Below the pieces are notes generated by a model. It was given only the letters and a program-made list of their open reading frames with translations. It was not told the DNA's origin and searched no databases. From a virus, in IMG/VR virus record IMGVR_UViG_3300008459_000049, positions 1 through 58,780 of that record: DNA of 58,780 bases. One strand, written 5' to 3'. Positions 52,163 to 58,735 of the stretch are shown in pieces (position 1 is the stretch's first letter; every line of letters starts with the position of its first letter). Made by a program: the position numbers and the translations under genes.

Positions 52163-52408
52163 TATCTCGTAAATAAGAAATCTAGAAAAATGGCCCGTAG
52201 TTTAAAAATGCCCTAGCTCTTGTTTTTGAAAAAAATCTTTTTATCAAGCGAATAGTTTTCCGGTATTTTTTTATTCTATATTGACAAGGGGGGAAGGGGG
52301 AGGAGGGGGTGGCAGCTTTCAAACTTTTTTGAAAGTTCAAAAACAAAAAACAAAAACAAACAAAAACTTTTGTTCCAGCCGAAAACTTTTTAGTTTGACA
52401 AAAGAAAA

Positions 52409-52427
52409 AACCCGCGCTAGGCGGGTT
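52409..52427 (-). terminator. Intrinsic terminator after the 86-aa gene
   Basis: AACCCGC/GCGGGTT seven-bp stem, five-base loop, followed on the minus strand by six T. It ends the operon 53142-52434. Confidence 0.85.
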
Positions 52428-52433
52428 CCTTCC

Positions 52434-52694
52434 TTAGAGGTTAGCTGTTGGATCAACGCGAGGCGGTCGATCCCCGCGTGACGGTCCCCATTCCATTCGT
52501 TCCTTTATCTTTGATAGGTCTTCATTCCTCTTGTCTGCAATCGCTTGTAGGTTCTCCCGCTTGTATCCCCAACAAACAACCCCGTCCACCTTATCTCCCA
52601 CCATACTGATTAGTGCATATTGATTATACTCACCATCAGTCTTGAAACCAAGGGTGCCTGCCTCTTGCCTATCTACTACATTATAACGTGCCAT
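52434..52694 (-). CDS. Hypothetical early protein (86 aa)
   Basis: ATG at 52694 with GGAGG eight bases upstream; an earlier start is inside the SD and is rejected. MARYNVVDRQEAGTLGFKTD ... GVVCWGYKRENLQAIADKRN ... RPPRVDPTANL. Last gene of a four-gene early operon with 38-aa, 38-aa and 75-aa partners. No domain recognised. Confidence 0.68.
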   Translation of the reverse strand: MARYNVVDRQEAGTLGFKTDGEYNQYALISMVGDKVDGVVCWGYKRENLQAIADKRNEDLSKIKERMEWGPSRGDRPPRVDPTANL

Positions 52695-52695
52695 G

Positions 52696-52812
52696 TTAAC
52701 CTCCAAAGGTAAGAATGAATGCGGTGATAACGGAACCGCTCAAAGCTCCAAGTGCAAGGGAATAAAGAACAAGCTGGCGAACTTCCCGATCATTGTGCGT
52801 ATAGGTGATCAT
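52696..52812 (-). CDS. Tiny membrane protein (38 aa)
   Basis: MITYTHNDREVRQLVLYSLA has a hydrophobic C-terminal half (LGALSGSVITAFILTF). SD GGAGGGAAC. Its ATG overlaps the stop of the 38-residue basic protein (ACATGATC) and its stop is followed by GGAGG for the next gene. Too short for standard gene callers, but spacing argues it is real. Confidence 0.6.
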   Translation of the reverse strand: MITYTHNDREVRQLVLYSLALGALSGSVITAFILTFGG

Positions 52813-52925
52813 GTTCCCTCCAAGATCATCCGACGTGCAGTTAGACGAACCCGCTTGACAGCAACCCGCTTGCTGAACCGCTTCATCTTTCGGGATGAAT
52901 CACACCAGAAGAACTTACCAGTCAT
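52809..52925 (-). CDS. Tiny basic protein (38 aa)
   Basis: MTGKFFWCDSSRKMKRFSKR ... RRMILEGT. Highly basic, so nucleic-acid or membrane binding is possible. The ATG lies inside the end of the 75-residue gene. No homologue recognised. Confidence 0.5.
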   Translation of the reverse strand: MTGKFFWCDSSRKMKRFSKRVAVKRVRLTARRMILEGT

Positions 52926-53142
52926 AATCGGCCTCCGCACGAATGTCGTCAGCATAATCCTTACGCAGCTTCACCGCAATTTCGTAGTGTTCAAAAACCT
53001 GATGCCAATCAGCCAGTTCGTGGTTCTTCACTTCGGTCATAAAGTCACCAAACTCCTCACACTCAACAATCCAATCCCATCCCTTGGTGTAGTTCTTGCG
53101 AGCGTGCTGCTGGAGGGCATCAAACATTTCCTGATGGGTCAT
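52915..53142 (-). CDS. Early protein with YxxGWDxxVE motif (75 aa)
   Basis: MTHQEMFDALQQHARKNYTK GWDWIVECEEF. The NYTKGWDWIVE segment resembles YNEGWDELVES of the gene at 56123, so the two may be distant relatives. Acidic, helical. It starts the four-gene operon driven by the minus-strand promoter at 53306. Confidence 0.68.
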   Translation of the reverse strand: MTHQEMFDALQQHARKNYTKGWDWIVECEEFGDFMTEVKNHELADWHQVFEHYEIAVKLRKDYADDIRAEADYDW

Positions 53143-53248
53143 CTTGTCTCTCGCTTGTTGGTGTCGGTCAGTTCCGACTCAACGGTTATCTCATGGATGG
53201 CTGCGGAGTGCAACAAAAAAAGAGCAGGTCGATTGTTGTTTTTTTCTC

Positions 53249-53277
53249 TTGACACCGGGAAAAGGAGATGATATACT
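53249..53277 (+). promoter_or_regulatory. Sigma70-type promoter, rightward (module A)
   Basis: TTGACA, 17 bases, TATACT on the plus strand, facing the leftward promoter at 53306. A TTTTTTT run lies just upstream. Confidence 0.75.
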
Positions 53278-53283
53278 GAACGA

Positions 53284-53302
53284 GCCGCCGCAGCGCGGCG
53301 GC
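53284..53302. repeat. GC-rich hairpin between facing promoters (module A)
   Basis: GCCGCCGC/GCGGCGGC eight-bp stem, loop AGC, between the two -10 boxes. Confidence 0.9.
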
Positions 53303-53305
53303 CAG

Positions 53306-53334
53306 ATTTTACCACAAGCGGTTTCTGCTGTCAA
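53306..53334 (-). promoter_or_regulatory. Sigma70 promoter, leftward (module A)
   Basis: TTGACA, 17 bases, TAAAAT on the minus strand; drives the 53142-52434 operon. Confidence 0.82.
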
Positions 53335-53343
53335 GAGAAAAAA

Positions 53344-53370
53344 GCATCAAGGGTTGGCGATGTTTGACGC
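53344..53370 (-). terminator. Terminator of the 121-aa gene
   Basis: GCGTCAA pairs with TTGATGC (one G-T), 13-base loop, then six T, directly before the -35 box at 53334. Confidence 0.72.
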
Positions 53371-53374
53371 AGTG

Positions 53375-53418
53375 CAATGGGGATTGCAAGCCATTGTTCC
53401 GACCTACAATCCCCATTG
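53375..53418. repeat. 12-bp inverted repeat downstream of the 121-aa gene
   Basis: CAATGGGGATTG and CAATCCCCATTG, 20-base spacer; just after the stop of the 121-residue gene. Confidence 0.9.
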
Positions 53419-53428
53419 TTGCAATATG

Positions 53429-53794
53429 TTACTCCTTACGGCGATTGGCGTTCATCGCCTCACGACGCTCCCACAGATCACGCGCAAGCTCGCGGTCCAC
53501 ATCATGCCCACGCGAGAACGCGAGGATCATGTCAAACGCCTGAGAGGTAACAGAATCGCCACCTTCGGTCTTAGGAGCGGGCATCGAACCAGCGGGCCAG
53601 CTTCCACCATCACGACCCTTGCGAGTCTCCAGAACGCCCGTATCATGGGCGAACTTGATAAGGGAAGCGTTGTACTTCCCAACGTGCTGCATCACACCGC
53701 GAGGACAACCGCTGTTGTTGGCGGTGTTATACTGGCGAACGAACTCCACCAGAGCGTCGATCTGAGCCACGTCGATCTGCACCTTGTCACCCAT
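53429..53794 (-). CDS. Early protein, paralogue of the 120-aa gene
   Basis: ATG at 53794 with AAAGGTGG eight bases upstream (an in-frame GTG four codons earlier is rejected). The C-terminal half, AFDMILAFSRGHDVDRELARDLWERREAMNANRRK, is closely repeated in the gene at 55221. The middle has a GGSWPAGSMPAPK stretch. Helical, basic C-terminus. DNA- or protein-binding is plausible, not shown. The leader is about 280 bases and contains the large inverted repeat at 53913. Confidence 0.72.
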   Translation of the reverse strand: MGDKVQIDVAQIDALVEFVRQYNTANNSGCPRGVMQHVGKYNASLIKFAHDTGVLETRKGRDGGSWPAGSMPAPKTEGGDSVTSQAFDMILAFSRGHDVDRELARDLWERREAMNANRRKE

Positions 53795-53912
53795 AACAGC
53801 ATCCACCTTTCATGGAGGCGATCCATTCGCCTCACCGCAGCAGCATCACCGGCTGCCGACTCACCTTTTATCTCACACCAGCAGGAAGAGTGCAACCTTT
53901 TTTTTGCTCTAT

Positions 53913-54009
53913 CGGCAGAGTGCAGTTGCAATCCAGTTGCACTTGCAAGGCGATTGTAGTTGTCACCAGGTCCCAAGTGCAACTGGATTGCAACTGCACT
54001 TCTCTGCCG
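53913..54009. repeat. Large near-perfect inverted repeat (33 bp)
   Basis: Left arm CGGCAGAGTGCAGTTGCAAT (53913 on) and its matching right arm ending at 54009; three-base bulge, 28-base spacer. It lies in the leader of the 121-residue gene and precedes a T7 run. Confidence 0.9.
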
Positions 54010-54027
54010 GTGCGTGTTCTTTTTTTG

Positions 54028-54056
54028 TTGACACCGGGAAACAGGTGTGGTATACT
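54028..54056 (+). promoter_or_regulatory. Sigma70-type promoter, rightward (module B)
   Basis: TTGACA, 17 bases, TATACT, plus strand; faces the promoter at 54088. Confidence 0.78.
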
Positions 54057-54062
54057 GAACGC

Positions 54063-54081
54063 GCCGCCGCGCTGCGGCGGC
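54063..54081. repeat. GC-rich hairpin (module B)
   Basis: GCCGCCGC/GCGGCGGC eight-bp stem, loop GCT, between the two -10 boxes. Confidence 0.9.
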
Positions 54082-54087
54082 TCGGGC

Positions 54088-54116
54088 ATTATAGCATATG
54101 CCCGAAACCGCGTCAA
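54088..54116 (-). promoter_or_regulatory. Sigma70 promoter, leftward (module B)
   Basis: TTGACG, 17 bases, TATAAT; near-consensus. Drives the 121-residue gene through a long leader. Confidence 0.88.
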
Positions 54117-54125
54117 GCGTTTTTT

Positions 54126-54311
54126 TCAATCCTCGTAGTTGTCCCAATACTCGGTGCGAGTAAGTGGCGCACCGTTTGCATATTCGTCCTCCATCTCCGC
54201 GATCCGCTGTTGCTCCCATTCGTCGCAGTCGATGCAGAGGTTCAAAACGTTGTTGGACTGATAACCCTTGTGGAGTTCAGACTTGCAGCTTTCGCACTCG
54301 AAGGTTTCCAT
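54126..54311 (-). CDS. Cys-pair small protein (61 aa)
   Basis: METFECESCKSELHKGYQSN ... NLCIDCDEWEQ gives two CxxC-type pairs, a probable zinc site. Acidic. SD GGGAGAACAAG. Promoter at 54346. Confidence 0.65.
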   Translation of the reverse strand: METFECESCKSELHKGYQSNNVLNLCIDCDEWEQQRIAEMEDEYANGAPLTRTEYWDNYED

Positions 54312-54345
54312 CTTGTTCTCCCTTTCGGCACCGTGCCGATGATCC

Positions 54346-54374
54346 TTTGTATCGCAGAGCGGATCGCTTGTCCA
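54346..54374 (-). promoter_or_regulatory. Promoter of the 61-aa gene, with start hairpin
   Basis: TGGACA, 17 bases, TACAAA. Downstream, CGGCA-CCG-TGCCG forms a hairpin at 54325-54339 near the transcription start, similar to the one at 55116. Confidence 0.6.
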
Positions 54375-54383
54375 GCTTTTTTT

Positions 54384-54488
54384 CTAGAACGGACCAACAA
54401 TATCTTTGATCGCAGAGTAGACAACAGCACCTGCAAGGCCGATTGCCGTCATGCCACCAACAAACAGAACGCAGTAGATGATCGTCAT
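54384..54488 (-). CDS. Tiny membrane protein (34 aa)
   Basis: MTIIYCVLFVGGMTAIGLAG AVVYSAIKDIVGPF is nearly all hydrophobic; it follows the 28-residue gene by seven bases with SD GAGGAAAC. Membrane-peptide type. Confidence 0.6.
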   Translation of the reverse strand: MTIIYCVLFVGGMTAIGLAGAVVYSAIKDIVGPF

Positions 54489-54495
54489 TGTTTCC

Positions 54496-54582
54496 TCAGT
54501 GGTCAAGAGTATACAGCGCGGCAGCAGTGATTGCAACAACAATGATGGTGGAGAAAAGGATATTCAGGATTCGGTCGCTCAT
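54496..54582 (-). CDS. Tiny membrane protein (28 aa)
   Basis: MSDRILNILFSTIIVVAITA AALYTLDH, one transmembrane segment. GGAGGCC ribosome site. Drives with its neighbour from the promoter at 54609. Below usual gene-calling length. Confidence 0.6.
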   Translation of the reverse strand: MSDRILNILFSTIIVVAITAAALYTLDH

Positions 54583-54608
54583 GTGTGGCCTCCGTTGTTG
54601 ATGATGTA

Positions 54609-54637
54609 GTTATACACGACGGGGTTGGAGCGGTCAA
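54609..54637 (-). promoter_or_regulatory. Sigma70 promoter (TTGACC-17-TATAAC)
   Basis: Minus strand; start expected about 20 bases before the GGAGG of the 28-residue gene. Confidence 0.8.
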
Positions 54638-54720
54638 CTTTTTCTTTTGTTCTATCCGCAGGATTGACGCGCTGCGTCTGGTGGAACAGGAAAAGGTGGT
54701 GGTGGTTGTTCTTTTTTTGT

Positions 54721-54749
54721 TGACACCGCTTGCTGGTTATGGTATACTG
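54721..54749 (+). promoter_or_regulatory. Sigma70-type promoter, rightward (module C)
   Basis: TTGACA, 17 bases, TATACT; faces the promoter at 54790. Preceded by T7. Confidence 0.78.
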
Positions 54750-54765
54750 GGCAAGCCGCCAGCCA

Positions 54766-54787
54766 GCCGCCCGCTTGCGGGCGGCTC
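54766..54787. repeat. GC-rich hairpin (module C)
   Basis: AGCCGCCCGC/GCGGGCGGCT ten-bp stem, two-base loop, between the two -10 boxes. Confidence 0.9.
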
Positions 54788-54789
54788 GA

Positions 54790-54818
54790 TTATAGCATAA
54801 TCGAGAAACCCTGTCAAC
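54790..54818 (-). promoter_or_regulatory. Consensus sigma70 promoter, leftward (module C)
   Basis: TTGACA, 17 bases, TATAAT: a perfect consensus. Its transcript crosses the hairpin and reads through the rightward promoter. Confidence 0.92.
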
Positions 54819-54833
54819 ATGAAAAAGAGCGTG

Positions 54834-54855
54834 AGCGTTTTTTTCTGGAACGCTC
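54834..54855 (-). terminator. Likely weak terminator after the 76-aa gene
   Basis: GAGCGTT/AACGCTC seven-bp stem; T5 follows six bases later on the minus strand. Confidence 0.5.
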
Positions 54856-54868
54856 AAAACCAGATACT

Positions 54869-55099
54869 CTAGCGTGCGAGAGTATGCGTCACATTCCTGA
54901 CATGAGCGTCAACCATTCGCATCATTCGACCGCTGCGGATCGTACCCTCGGAGCCGTTGTCGTTGACATAAACATAAACCTTTTTCTGGCGCTTCGCCCA
55001 TTCGCGGATTGCCTTGACGGTCTGAAACTCATACAGCTTGCCACTCTTTTGAGCGGCGGTGGAACCCTTCGAACGGATAATGCGTTGTGCGATAATCAT
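54869..55099 (-). CDS. Hypothetical basic early protein (76 aa)
   Basis: MIIAQRIIRSKGSTAAQKSG ... AIREWAKRQKKVYVYVNDNG SEGTIRSGRMMRMVDAHV. Positive charge suggests nucleic-acid contact. Promoter at 55145, hairpin at its transcript start. Confidence 0.62.
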   Translation of the reverse strand: MIIAQRIIRSKGSTAAQKSGKLYEFQTVKAIREWAKRQKKVYVYVNDNGSEGTIRSGRMMRMVDAHVRNVTHTLAR

Positions 55100-55115
55100 C
55101 TTTTCCTCTTTTCTG

Positions 55116-55134
55116 TCGGCGCACCGTGCGCCGA
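55116..55134. repeat. Hairpin at the start of the 76-aa transcript
   Basis: TCGGCGCA/TGCGCCGA eight-bp stem, loop CCG. Resembles the smaller hairpin at 54325. Confidence 0.85.
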
Positions 55135-55144
55135 AACTTTGTAT

Positions 55145-55173
55145 ACACTACAGGTTTTTTTGTGGAGAGTCAA
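55145..55173 (-). promoter_or_regulatory. Promoter of the 76-aa gene (TTGACT-17-TAGTGT)
   Basis: Minus strand; weak -10 box, shared with the SpoU promoter. Abuts the hairpin at 55174. Confidence 0.5.
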
Positions 55174-55220
55174 GCGAAAGAGCGGGGGTTTTTTCTTGGG
55201 AACCCCCGAAACCCTTTCGC
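55174..55220 (-). terminator. Nested-stem terminator-like structure
   Basis: GCGAAAG/CTTTCGC outer stem, GGGGGTT/AACCCCC inner stem, right after the 120-residue gene. No clean T run; may be a rho-independent stop with weak tail. Confidence 0.6.
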
Positions 55221-55583
55221 CTACTCGCCCTTACGACGATTGGCGTTAAGGGCTTCCCGCTCATCCCAAAGGTCGCGGGCAAGCGAAGGGTCGATATTCT
55301 CACCGCGACTGAAGGCAAGGATCATATCGAAAGCGCGAGCGGTTACACTAGGCGTGGAATCCTCAGTCTGGGGAACCTCACCGAACGGGAAAACGCCCCC
55401 CGTCTTTCCCTTCGTCTTTTCGACCATGCGGGTTTCCACCGAATAAGCCAGCTCTGCGGGAGTGAACCCAAGAGCATGAACAATATGCCCAGAGGGGCAA
55501 CCGCGACCATTCACCTTGACGTACTCCCGAACTGCAAGAGAAAGAGCCACAACGCGATCACCGTTCACAGTAGCCTTCGCCAT
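55221..55583 (-). CDS. Early protein, paralogue of the 121-aa gene
   Basis: MAKATVNGDRVVALSLAVRE ... ARAFDMILAFSRGENIDPSL ... DLWDEREALNANRRKGE. The C-terminal ~40 residues nearly repeat those of the gene at 53429. Each copy has its own promoter and terminator, so it looks like a duplicated module. Function unknown; small basic C-terminus. SD AAAGG. Confidence 0.72.
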   Translation of the reverse strand: MAKATVNGDRVVALSLAVREYVKVNGRGCPSGHIVHALGFTPAELAYSVETRMVEKTKGKTGGVFPFGEVPQTEDSTPSVTARAFDMILAFSRGENIDPSLARDLWDEREALNANRRKGE

Positions 55584-55630
55584 TCGCCTATCCTACCTTT
55601 CGCGCTTTCGCGCCTTTCGTTTTGTGGCTT

Positions 55631-55647
55631 GCGGGAACCATTCCCGC
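55631..55647. repeat. Hairpin near transcript start of the 120-aa gene
   Basis: GCGGGAA/TTCCCGC seven-bp stem, loop CCA; follows the -10 box by about 20 bases. Confidence 0.85.
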
Positions 55648-55665
55648 TCACCGTCTTACCCACTC

Positions 55666-55695
55666 TTTATACCGTGGAACCCGTCCCGCTGTCCA
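55666..55695 (-). promoter_or_regulatory. Sigma70 promoter of the 120-aa gene
   Basis: TGGACA, 18 bases, TATAAA, minus strand. The 247-base stretch 55584-55830 has no gene. Confidence 0.7.
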
Positions 55696-55830
55696 GTCTT
55701 TTTTTCGACCCCTTGCTTTTTTCCTACCGTGCCGCGTCACCCGTTCACCGCGTCACCATTGTCTTTTCTCATATCCCGCCGGGGATTGCAAGCGGTTTTT
55801 TTTGGGCAGATCCAGGAATCGCTTTCTGCC

Positions 55831-56079
55831 TTATTCCCAATCCCATTCGGCGGCTGGCAAAATGCCATTTAGATCATCGCCATAAACATATTTGAGCAAA
55901 TGGGGCTGAATCTCATTCACCGAAACCGATCCGATCTCATTCTCGAAACCGTTTACAAGTGCTGTCCGAATATCGCTTCGGTGCTTATTGTCAATAAAAT
56001 AATATTCCCATCCATTCTTTAGAATGGCATATCCGTGGACAGTTATCCGCTGATTGCCATTCCGCATAATGCGAGACAT
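55831..56079 (-). CDS. Hypothetical protein (82 aa)
   Basis: MSRIMRNGNQRITVHGYAIL KNGWEYYFIDNKHRSDIRTA and a C-terminus ending PAAEWDWE. AAGGAG ribosome site. Shares an operon with the 78-residue gene. Confidence 0.65.
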   Translation of the reverse strand: MSRIMRNGNQRITVHGYAILKNGWEYYFIDNKHRSDIRTALVNGFENEIGSVSVNEIQPHLLKYVYGDDLNGILPAAEWDWE

Positions 56080-56122
56080 ATCTCTACTCCTTTGTGGATA
56101 TTCTTTTTTTGTTTCTCTCTTG

Positions 56123-56359
56123 CTAGTTTATAGCAGACTGTCCATGATGATCTGGATTGAATCGGTTATTGAAAAAGACGATTGCGTCATCCAGCTTTGT
56201 GATATGATTGAAGAATAGGGTATTGAATATATCATCTGACGTATAACTTTCAACCAGTTCATCCCATCCTTCATTGTAGAATAAGCGCCCATATTCCATT
56301 AGTGCAGGAATCAAATCCTCTATCTCTATTTCCATTCTGTACTTATCGTCAATCTCCAT
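56123..56359 (-). CDS. Early protein with YNEGWDELVE motif (78 aa)
   Basis: ATG at 56359 with AGGAAT upstream; the longer frame begins in sequence upstream of the SD. Contains LFYNEGWDELVESYTSDDIF and DDAIVFFNNRF. Resembles the 75-residue gene at 52915. Function unknown. Confidence 0.68.
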   Translation of the reverse strand: MEIDDKYRMEIEIEDLIPALMEYGRLFYNEGWDELVESYTSDDIFNTLFFNHITKLDDAIVFFNNRFNPDHHGQSAIN

Positions 56360-56392
56360 TATTATTCCTCGCTGTTCTTTCCAGGAATATGG

Positions 56393-56421
56393 AGCATACC
56401 ATACCACCGATACCCGCGCAA
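56393..56421 (-). promoter_or_regulatory. Candidate promoter (TTGCGC-17-TATGCT)
   Basis: Minus strand; weak -35. Next to the large palindrome at 56460. Confidence 0.45.
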
Positions 56422-56459
56422 TGGTTTATTATAGGTATATTGAATATATCGGCATATCC

Positions 56460-56539
56460 AGCCGCCCTTTTAACCTATTATACCCGTACTAATATAGTAG
56501 GGTACTACTATATAGGTATAATAGGTTAAAAGGGCGGCT
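56460..56539. repeat. Nested palindrome (25-bp arms, inner 9-bp stem)
   Basis: AGCCGCCCTTTTAACCTATT and its complement; the inner loop folds again as ATATAGTAG/CTACTATAT with a four-base loop. Perfect pairing over all 25 bases. Confidence 0.95.
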
Positions 56540-56620
56540 AGGTTAACCTATTATACCTTATGTAATACATTGTTTGAGCACCCCCCACCCCGGTATTATA
56601 TTACCCACGATGGGGGGATT
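56540..56620. repeat. ACATTGTTT/C-rich element, copy 1
   Basis: After GGCGGCTAGGTTA comes ACATTGTTTGAGCACCCCCC, then ACCCC and an A/T-rich part; copy 2 is at 58645-58735. Confidence 0.75.
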
Positions 56621-56629
56621 AGGTTACCG

Positions 56630-56691
56630 CTTATCCCCTAATGGTGTTCCCGATCCCAACACCATTGGCAGAAAGGGGGATGGGGGATAAG
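56630..56691. repeat. Nested hairpin CTTATCCCC...GGGGATAAG
   Basis: Outer nine-bp arms and an inner AATGGTGTT/AACACCATT stem with a nine-base loop. Confidence 0.88.
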
Positions 56692-56742
56692 TGGATCTGC
56701 CCTATCACCGCAGATCACACAACGCTTTATATTATCCACTGT

Positions 56743-57417
56743 TTACTCCTTATGGGAGAAATACTTTTTCTGCCCTTCGGTCAAAGCCTTATTACCATGG
56801 TAAGTTAACCCAATCTTGATTGTTCCCTCGATAGCATTAACGTCAGTTTCTGAACCGTTTTCATACCCCGCACGGATACGATCATCATCCGTTGTGAAGA
56901 TACGGGAATGGGGCATATTAAGGTTTACAAGGTTATCGTGCTTTCCACCAAGGGACTGAGTGATACGGAAGTTTTCGGGCTTATTCCCAAACAGATCCAT
57001 ATTCACAGTCTTGGTATATGCATAAAAGATCATATGGGGAAGTGCCTTAGCGATATCACACCACTTGCGGTAATACTCCATATTGTAGAAATCACCTGAA
57101 TCATGGATACGGACAGTATTCACTTTCCGCATACGCTTCAAATCAGCGATTGCATTATCCACGAAATCGCTTTGGAGGGACATGGTGAGATTAAAGATAC
57201 GGGCATTAACCACATTAGAGAAACGGTACATACCCTGTTTCGCATAACAAGGATCACGACAAGCGAGAGCAGCGGGACAAGTATTATACTTTTTGCCATC
57301 CACCTGGAAATCATAATCAGCGGGGATACCGAAACCAACAATAGTGTAAACACCACCATTGTCCTTATTCAGCTTCTCATTACCGTTAGTCCACTTGAGG
57401 TAGAAAGGCTTTGCCAT
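56743..57417 (-). CDS. GP88-family phage protein
   Basis: 224 residues. CPAALACRDPCYAKQGMYRF, then NARIFNLTMSL, VRIHDSGDFYN and IFYAYTKTVN, are the Cys-rich and SGDF features of the gene-88 family, found across phages and of unknown function. The Cys pattern suggests a metal or iron-sulphur centre. Promoter at 57447. The family name is from recognition of the motifs. Confidence 0.78.
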   Translation of the reverse strand: MAKPFYLKWTNGNEKLNKDNGGVYTIVGFGIPADYDFQVDGKKYNTCPAALACRDPCYAKQGMYRFSNVVNARIFNLTMSLQSDFVDNAIADLKRMRKVNTVRIHDSGDFYNMEYYRKWCDIAKALPHMIFYAYTKTVNMDLFGNKPENFRITQSLGGKHDNLVNLNMPHSRIFTTDDDRIRAGYENGSETDVNAIEGTIKIGLTYHGNKALTEGQKKYFSHKE

Positions 57418-57446
57418 TATCGTTTCCTCCGTTGCGGTGATGGTCG

Positions 57447-57475
57447 CTTATACCCCGGCACGCTTCCGTTGTCAC
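57447..57475 (-). promoter_or_regulatory. Promoter of the GP88-like gene
   Basis: GTGACA, 17 bases, TATAAG, minus strand; ends the gap between 57417 and 57489. Confidence 0.65.
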
Positions 57476-57488
57476 GCCTTTTTTTAAG

Positions 57489-57752
57489 CTAAACGGGCAA
57501 ACCGCATTCCACAAAACGGTAGCCACGCTCTTGGAGGATAACACGCAAACTGTTTTGGTGGTTACTGGTAGTACAGGAATACCTATTCACATTCAAACGA
57601 TAGGGATCTCCGATATTATCAGGAGTAACAAGGATGATAGTATTATAGGAATAGATGTGAACACCGTCAGTCCAGATGGACTTATTCTTTTCCTTGTTAT
57701 CCCGAATGTTATTACGCCATGCCGTGAAAACCCGAATAGTGTTCTTCCGCAT
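57489..57752 (-). CDS. Hypothetical protein (87 aa)
   Basis: ATG at 57752 with GGAGGG upstream; the longer frame starts at an earlier non-SD codon. Begins MRKNTIRVFTAWRNNIRDNK. Has SIWTDGVHIYSYNTIILVTP and ends RGYRFVECGLPV. Beta-rich, unknown. Confidence 0.65.
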   Translation of the reverse strand: MRKNTIRVFTAWRNNIRDNKEKNKSIWTDGVHIYSYNTIILVTPDNIGDPYRLNVNRYSCTTSNHQNSLRVILQERGYRFVECGLPV

Positions 57753-57791
57753 AACGATACCCTCCGTTGTGTGCCGTTGTTCGATGGTGTG

Positions 57792-57820
57792 AATATACAC
57801 GACCGCACGCCCGCTGTCCA
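57792..57820 (-). promoter_or_regulatory. Promoter of the 87-aa gene (TGGACA-17-TATATT)
   Basis: Minus strand, lies in the 57753-57918 gap. Confidence 0.75.
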
Positions 57821-57918
57821 CCCCATATTTAGGGCAAATGCAGGAACGGTGATAGGGATAAAGTTAAATGCTTTTGGGGCGGCTGGAAAACCCTTTATAG
57901 AAGCTCTTTAGGTGGTGC

Positions 57919-58113
57919 CTAATCTACTGGAGTTACGTTGCATACATCAACCCAACAATCATCCAGTTTCTCTAATGGCAGAAACCGCATATAGGCAATA
58001 CCTGTTTTATTTCTCAATCTAAGAATAATCCCATATGCATATCTGTCATTCTTATCTGCACTCCAAGCACGAATACGGGTTCTTGCCATCTGCCCAATCT
58101 TTAATGTGCTCAT
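57919..58113 (-). CDS. Hypothetical protein (64 aa)
   Basis: MSTLKIGQMARTRIRAWSAD ... YAYGIILRLRNKTGIAYMRF. Beta-type core; four-base overlap with the next gene. Unknown. Confidence 0.65.
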   Translation of the reverse strand: MSTLKIGQMARTRIRAWSADKNDRYAYGIILRLRNKTGIAYMRFLPLEKLDDCWVDVCNVTPVD

Positions 58114-58319
58114 GAGTGTATCCTAAAATCCCATGTACGATTGTTAAATGCAGCAGAGGGATATGTAACGTTATTACTTAGATTCCATAAATCATATCTT
58201 TCATCTGTTACACTATCACCGGGATGTACCTTTAGTATAAACAGGTAATATATTTCATTCTTTCGATTAACATCTTTTGGATGCCCAATGATAATCTGTC
58301 CAGCTACTGGCTTTATCAT
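58110..58319 (-). CDS. Hypothetical protein (69 aa)
   Basis: MIKPVAGQIIIGHPKDVNRK ... SAAFNNRTWDFRIHS. Beta-type. Its promoter (58325) leaves little or no leader, though AGGA inside the -10 region could act as a ribosome site. Confidence 0.65.
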   Translation of the reverse strand: MIKPVAGQIIIGHPKDVNRKNEIYYLFILKVHPGDSVTDERYDLWNLSNNVTYPSAAFNNRTWDFRIHS

Positions 58320-58324
58320 AGCTT

Positions 58325-58353
58325 ATCCTAGCATATATCCAACTTGGAGTCAA
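58325..58353 (-). promoter_or_regulatory. Promoter (TTGACT-17-TAGGAT) with almost no leader
   Basis: Minus strand; -10 ends five bases before the ATG at 58319. Confidence 0.7.
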
Positions 58354-58367
58354 GTAGATATTAGGAA

Positions 58368-58421
58368 CATATAGGGAAAGGGGATTGCTATTATATCCCT
58401 ATTCTCCCCAATCCCTATATG
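58368..58421. repeat. Stepped inverted repeat
   Basis: CATATAGGGA/TCCCTATATG ten-bp stem, an A-A internal mismatch step, then GGGGA/TCCCC inside. It sits between the 30-residue gene and the promoter at 58325. Confidence 0.85.
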
Positions 58422-58434
58422 CTTATAACCCCTA

Positions 58435-58527
58435 TTAACCCTTACGGTTTAGACGCCTCGCTCTACGCTTTTTACTTCCTAACTTCCTTCGACCTTTACG
58501 TGGGCGGTTCTTATGTGGATGTGGCAT
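58435..58527 (-). CDS. Tiny very basic protein (30 aa)
   Basis: MPHPHKNRPRKGRRKLGSKK RRARRLNRKG; about half the residues are Arg or Lys. A near-perfect ribosome site (GGAGGTGAT) lies seven bases upstream. No family recognised; a nucleic-acid-binding peptide is plausible. Confidence 0.6.
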   Translation of the reverse strand: MPHPHKNRPRKGRRKLGSKKRRARRLNRKG

Positions 58528-58575
58528 ACGGGTATCACCTCCCTTCTATACTGGTATATAGGTATTGGGCATATT

Positions 58576-58735
58576 GCCAGCCGCCCGTAGGGCGGTAAAC
58601 CAATTATACCGTTATCCTTAACCTTTTTTCCGCCCCAAAGGGGCGGCTGGTTACTTGTAAAACATTGTTTAGACCCCCCCTACCCTACTGGAATATTGGG
58701 GCTTATACTACATATGGTATAGGGTCTGGATTGAA
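58576..58735. repeat. GC-rich hairpins and C-rich element, copy 2
   Basis: CCAGCCGCCC...GGGGCGGCTGG arms with an inner CCGCCC/GGGCGG hairpin, followed by ACATTGTTTAGACCCCCCC, matching the unit at 56540. No ORF credible in 58528-58780. Confidence 0.75.

Follow-up and report, generated by a model that had tools for sequence, protein, structure and literature searches.

The convergent promoters of the temperate phages 186 (pR-pL) and P2 belong to single-copy lysogeny switches with repressor sites, and the spacing in 186 is about 62 bp. PeSL cassettes consist of one strong early promoter, which reads in the direction of the genes and is paired with a terminator stem-loop. Such cassettes are described for the T4-type phages RB49 and phi1 (PMC4503421). 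In Bacillus subtilis, a convergent pair of sense and antisense promoters is located upstream of helD and of pps and provides a rifampicin alarm (PMC12802891); the stronger antisense promoter, in the leader, suppresses the sense promoter until rifampicin partly blocks initiation. The helD antisense RNA is about 90 nt long and ends near the upstream gene, and the published search motif for helD-type systems has 45–55 nt between the -10 boxes. The face-to-face promoters of phage 186 are named in the same paper (PMC12802891). The locus described here lies in a viral sequence of 58,780 nt (IMG/VR record IMGVR_UViG_3300008459_000049), the whole of which is called the window, and carries three predicted convergent promoter pairs, each around a GC-rich hairpin.

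Promoter pairs and hairpins of the window

The pairs are located at 53249–53334, 54028–54116 and 54720–54817 (Table 1). Sequence and promoter scoring place all three where the original prediction had them, except that its 54721 is one base off and should read 54720. The predicted T7 run precedes the rightward promoter at all three pairs (directly 5′ of the -35 boxes at 54028 and 54720 as well), and the GC-rich hairpin expected between the start points is present each time with a stem of 8–9 bp. The genes around the pairs all run leftward, and the leftward promoter is therefore the sense promoter (P_B) and the rightward one the antisense promoter (P_A). In all three cassettes the order is P_B, P_A, gene Y. 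The stop codon of gene X is 10–95 nt from the cassette on the P_B side, the start of gene Y is 107–222 nt away on the P_A side, and a candidate gene-proximal sense promoter sits between P_A and gene Y at each pair.

Table 1. Positions of the predicted promoters, hairpins and flanking genes of the three pairs
Feature	Position	Strand	Description
Pair 1 T7 run	53241–53247	+	5′ of P_A
Pair 1 P_A	53249–53277	+	antisense promoter TTGACA-17-TATACT, extended -10
Pair 1 hairpin	53284–53302		8 bp stem GCCGCCGC/GCGGCGGC, loop AGC
Pair 1 P_B	53306–53334	-	sense promoter TTGACA-17-TAAAAT, extended -10
Pair 1 gene-proximal promoter	53185–53213	-	weak candidate TTGCAC-17-GATAAC, 7/12, 5′ of gene 52915–53142
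Pair 1 gene Y	52915–53142	-	75 aa, no family match
Pair 1 gene X = pair 2 gene Y	53429–53806	-	125 aa, no family match
Pair 2 P_A	54028–54056	+	antisense promoter TTGACA-17-TATACT
Pair 2 hairpin	54063–54081		8 bp stem GCCGCCGC/GCGGCGGC, loop GCT
Pair 2 P_B	54088–54116	-	sense promoter TTGACG-17-TATAAT
Pair 2 gene-proximal promoter	53867–53895		weak candidate TTGCAC-17-GATAAA, similar to pair 1 site
Pair 2 gene X	54126–54311	-	61 aa, stop codon about 10 nt from cassette
Pair 3 P_A	54720–54748	+	antisense promoter TTGACA-17-TATACT
Pair 3 hairpin	54765–54786		9 bp stem AGCCGCCCG/CGGGCGGCT, loop CTTG
Pair 3 P_B	54789–54817	-	sense promoter TTGACA-17-TATAAT, 12/12
Pair 3 gene-proximal promoter	54609–54637		candidate TTGACC-17-TATAAC, 10/12
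Pair 3 gene(s) Y	54384–54582	-	two short membrane peptides, about 28 and 34 aa
Pair 3 gene X	54869–55099	-	76 aa

All six promoters match 11–12 of the 12 consensus positions with a 17-nt spacer and have the TG of an extended -10; from these boxes they are predicted to be of the sigma70 type. They account for six of the seven top-scoring promoter sites across 45.0–58.8 kb, and P_A and P_B are about equally near consensus. TTGACA-17-TATACT has three exact matches in the window against 0.02 expected from shuffles, and no shuffled window contained three. Scores of 11/12 or more are reached by 11 sites in the whole window; at gaps of 5–60 nt these give three pairs, all convergent and none divergent or tandem, where random placement would give about 0.03 convergent pairs (estimated from the site counts of the window). 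The -10 boxes are separated by 28, 31 and 40 nt. With starts placed 7 nt beyond each -10, the predicted start sites are 53284/53299, 54063/54081 and 54755/54782, which are 15, 18 and 27 bp apart.

The stretch between the -10 boxes folds at -17 to -23 kcal/mol, and in pairs 2 and 3 the -10 of P_B lies inside a second inverted repeat (CGGGCAT...ATGCCCG and CTCGATTAT...ATAATCGAG, respectively). No U-tract or adequate T-run follows the stems at the three pairs in either direction and the hairpins are absent from the terminator scan list, which rules them out as intrinsic terminators; no clear terminator was found 3′ of P_A in the window either. A search of Rfam gave no known RNA family for the hairpins, only generic hairpins below threshold. 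Pairs 1 and 2 share a promoter–hairpin repeat of 62 nt with 81% identity, and the 125-aa gene at 53429–53806 is a paralogue of 55221–55583. Its single match (L123) was spurious, lying in another frame of a large structural gene, and the predicted structure of the protein (pLDDT 41) was unusable.

Other repeats occur in the same region. A perfect 27-bp inverted repeat with a 28-nt loop (53919–54000) lies between pair 2 and the 125-aa gene, with no T-run close behind in either direction. AGCCGCC has 13 copies in the window (1.3 expected), and 11 lie within 53200–58700. Four copies of GGTATAATAGGTTAA, one imperfect, lie within 56460–56558 and 58596–58610; copies form a perfect 16-bp inverted repeat at 56514–56558, adjoining AGCCGCC/GGCGGCT hairpin arms, in which two extended -10 boxes without -35 boxes face each other across 27 nt. 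The GGTATAATAGGTTAA sites are possibly another promoter class.

The window phage, with 33% baseplate identity to a Microcystis phage, is assigned by sequence to a T4-like myovirus lineage. No lysogeny gene was recognised among the proteins scanned. GC content is about 30% at 1–49 kb, 50–57% at 52400–56000 and about 42% thereafter; the GC-rich block is either a foreign island of early genes or a chimeric join.

Units of the same layout in other phages

IMG/VR, scanned by pattern for near-consensus promoters in convergent pairs, yielded at least 119 stretches, and the reversed-pattern control gave no match in 33 records. The sorted matches fall into several classes, of which the biggest GC-hairpin class among those listed has 36–38 nt between the -10 boxes. 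It is carried by large gut phages with a YonF-type terminase (contigs of 12–176 kb): among the matches listed, more than 20 related contigs plus the named phage Phass-1. The terminase of the one member compared (G006) has its kin in Enterococcus H1, Geobacillus E3 and Phass-1, and the group is unrelated to the T4-like myovirus of the window. In Phass-1 a single unit separates two small genes that run in the same direction, and the annotated genes show the window polarity. The three-part unit sought in related phages was thus found outside the lineage of the window; in the two closest-relative fragments (16 and 104 kb; 51% and 45% identity) there was no convergent pair. The likeness of the window units to those of the gut phages reflects either parallel evolution or exchange. 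No convergent unit was found in Enterococcus H1, EF1, VRE9_4, Geobacillus E3, the Microcystis phage or RB49, the PeSL archetype, whose 150 kb hold 68 sites scoring 11/12 or better and not one convergent pair. In 257 Gb of bacterial genomes, searched with a stricter pattern, the hairpin type was confined to contigs, possibly of phage origin, from two MAGs.

Other convergent pairs were set aside as different. Pairs of the AGAAAATAT type and of the AAGTTCG type have operator-like repeats; in six contigs (L065, L100, L038, L116, L033 and L070) a AGAAAATAT-like repeat occupies the promoter spacers and the middle, and the pairs of these contigs are probably repressor-controlled. Another class has an 18-nt gap at a conserved gene start. 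In a freshwater class (contigs G020 and G021), many promoters carry GGCGCC directly after the -10; this is probably an operator.

Among the matches listed, 33 non-redundant gut-phage units were used for covariation. The stems are shifted from unit to unit, so RNAalifold on a plain MAFFT alignment detected no structure; pairs were therefore counted in fixed registers. In the fixed columns the arms are 82.6% Watson–Crick paired (0.9% G-U). Exchanging arms among units gives 64.1% (sd 2.5, max 70.6), and sliding the register gives 46–54%. The stem arms of the gut phages covary. Paired changes are seen between the units of L049 and L175, whose Y genes are 88% identical. What is conserved is the architecture, and not the sequence of stem or loop.

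The order in these units is the stop of gene X, sense P_B, hairpin, antisense P_A, a third sense promoter and gene Y. In 18 of the 22 complete contexts, with genes called by a simple rule of open reading frame plus ribosome site, both neighbouring genes are leftward when P_A is rightward. The third promoter stands back to back with P_A at 58–59 nt in 16 of the 33 units and at 45–48 nt in seven. P_A has the full 12/12 consensus in 30 of the 33 units and P_B in 19, both being near consensus by the requirement of the search pattern; P_A is the nearer to consensus in 13 units and P_B in two (p = 0.007). The consensus score thus suggests a stronger antisense promoter in the gut group. In several units gene X has its own terminator before the cassette. 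Some variants with P_B only end in a hairpin plus T5 (G006:2274, G006:4443 and G001:56473), and there the hairpin resembles a terminator. Contigs such as L049 carry TTTGTGCAA and TTCCCGAAA motifs in the interval from P_A to the next promoter; these motifs could be operators. Gene Y recurrently encodes a protein of about 120 aa with a winged-helix-like model (3′ of the cassettes in L049, L175, L171, L169, L023, L096, L047 and L181); fold matches to the model were weak, with none at E ≤ 0.001.

G006 (175.6 kb) also carries dozens of promoters with 11–12/12 consensus at 165.5–175.6 and 0–7.7 kb. Most are directly 5′ of a small gene with a strong ribosome site and many are preceded by a terminator-like hairpin, a layout that reads as a PeSL-like array outside the T4-type phages.

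Proposed action of the cassette and alternatives

We propose that the cassette is an early-gene control element at the boundary of two small leftward genes, acting by mutual exclusion and by transcriptional interference on the leader of gene Y, and we give this mechanism somewhat less than an even chance. The predicted sense and antisense promoters face each other around the palindromic GC stem. An open complex spans roughly -55 to +20. With starts 15–27 bp apart, the two promoters would therefore not be filled together; a single polymerase would fit at once and P_A and P_B would compete. As the original prediction held, the anatomy of the pairs makes each transcript traverse the opposing promoter. 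P_A, lying in the leader of gene Y, would interfere with transcription from P_B into gene Y, and the palindrome would give both RNAs an identical 5′ stem-loop. We infer activity of both promoters, occupancy by one polymerase at a time and, as the purpose, tuning of gene Y, which may follow the polymerase state as it does at helD and pps. The three copies, far above chance, and the polarity common to window and gut units argue for interference, as do the covarying stems and the more consensus-like P_A of the gut units, the order shared with helD and the empty reversed-pattern control. Against it, the two fragments of the closest relatives have no pair, P_A and P_B of the window are about equally near consensus, the window spacing of 28–40 nt is outside the range of helD-type systems, and gene Y has a nearer candidate promoter of its own (a good match at pair 3, weak at pairs 1 and 2), so P_B may not be the main source of gene Y transcription.

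A wider reading, which we regard as rather unlikely, is that these cassettes form a phage class, spread over two or more unrelated lineages, that is a counterpart of the helD alarm: convergent promoters that exclude one another across a palindromic stem would register the condition of the host RNA polymerase (altered, for example, by phage proteins that modify or inhibit it) and switch early genes accordingly. If both promoters fire, a compact, multi-copy element of two promoters would set early output without a regulator protein, and the recently described polymerase-sensing convergent promoters would extend to phages. The recurrence in unrelated gut phages suggests that phages have a previously undescribed means of setting the output of early genes, and the search motif finds such cassettes in raw sequence.

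The cassettes could instead be PeSL-like boundaries that insulate neighbouring early genes and offer repeated homology for gene shuffling, the second promoter being incidental; we consider this a real but minor possibility. They sit between small orphan genes, two of them share the 62-nt repeat, a flanking gene has a paralogue nearby, and the single-promoter variants of the gut phages end in a hairpin plus T5. However, the window hairpins are not terminators by the scan, the terminator of gene X already precedes the cassette in several gut-phage units, RB49 has no convergent pair, and both promoters are near consensus in the 33 units, as the search pattern required.

It is improbable that P_A and P_B each yield a short stable RNA that acts in trans through the shared 5′ stem-loop. 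P_B does run straight into the hairpin plus T5 in the single-promoter forms, the P_A RNA of the gut-phage units would reach the terminator of gene X within about 100 nt, and helD yields an antisense RNA of about 90 nt (PMC12802891). However, stem and loop are conserved in architecture only, Rfam holds no such family, and P_A of the window has no clear terminator behind it. That the pairs arose by chance, or are decayed copies of a single promoter that do nothing together, is very unlikely: two of the three window units share a duplication and pairs are absent from the fragments of relatives, but three such pairs are very improbable and the layout and polarity recur independently in another phage group. 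A role as a replication-priming site, or as a promoter in hairpin or single-strand form (of the N4, F-plasmid Frpo or filamentous-phage origin type), is barely credible: the boxes are arranged as an inverted repeat around the hairpin, but the left and right spacers of the gut-phage units are not complementary beyond chance (4.85 matches within units against 4.93 between units), on which a Frpo/N4-type promoter formed by arm pairing fails, and each side has a complete double-strand promoter with an extended -10.

Comparison with known convergent promoters and PeSL cassettes

With 186 and P2 the cassette has in common convergent promoters and, as proposed here, mutual transcriptional interference; it differs in being multi-copy and closer spaced, with a hairpin between the starts. 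The suggested likeness to PeSL cassettes holds only in general terms: in both, a strong sigma70-like early promoter and a stem-loop recur many times among small variable genes. In PeSL the stem-loop is a terminator, whereas the window hairpin is located between two start sites and has no U-tract, and the window has two convergent promoters in place of a single one. The cassette is not a PeSL because these two defining features fail.

The helD/pps pairs differ from the phage units in their spacing (45–55 nt against 28, 31 and 40 nt in the window and mostly 36–38 nt in the gut phages). In the phage units the start sites flank a palindromic GC stem, copies recur in a single genome, another promoter lies closer to the gene, and there is no link to rifampicin. 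In both, the sense promoter is farther from the gene and the antisense promoter is in the leader, an order found in three of three window and 18 of 22 gut contexts. The antisense RNA is, or in the phage units would be, directed towards the end of the upstream gene, and the antisense promoter is nearer consensus in the gut-phage units, whereas the window scores are nearly equal. Judged by topology, the helD/pps pair is a better match than PeSL; by analogy, the cassette would act in the manner of a helD-type pair, with a closer spacing and an extra stem.
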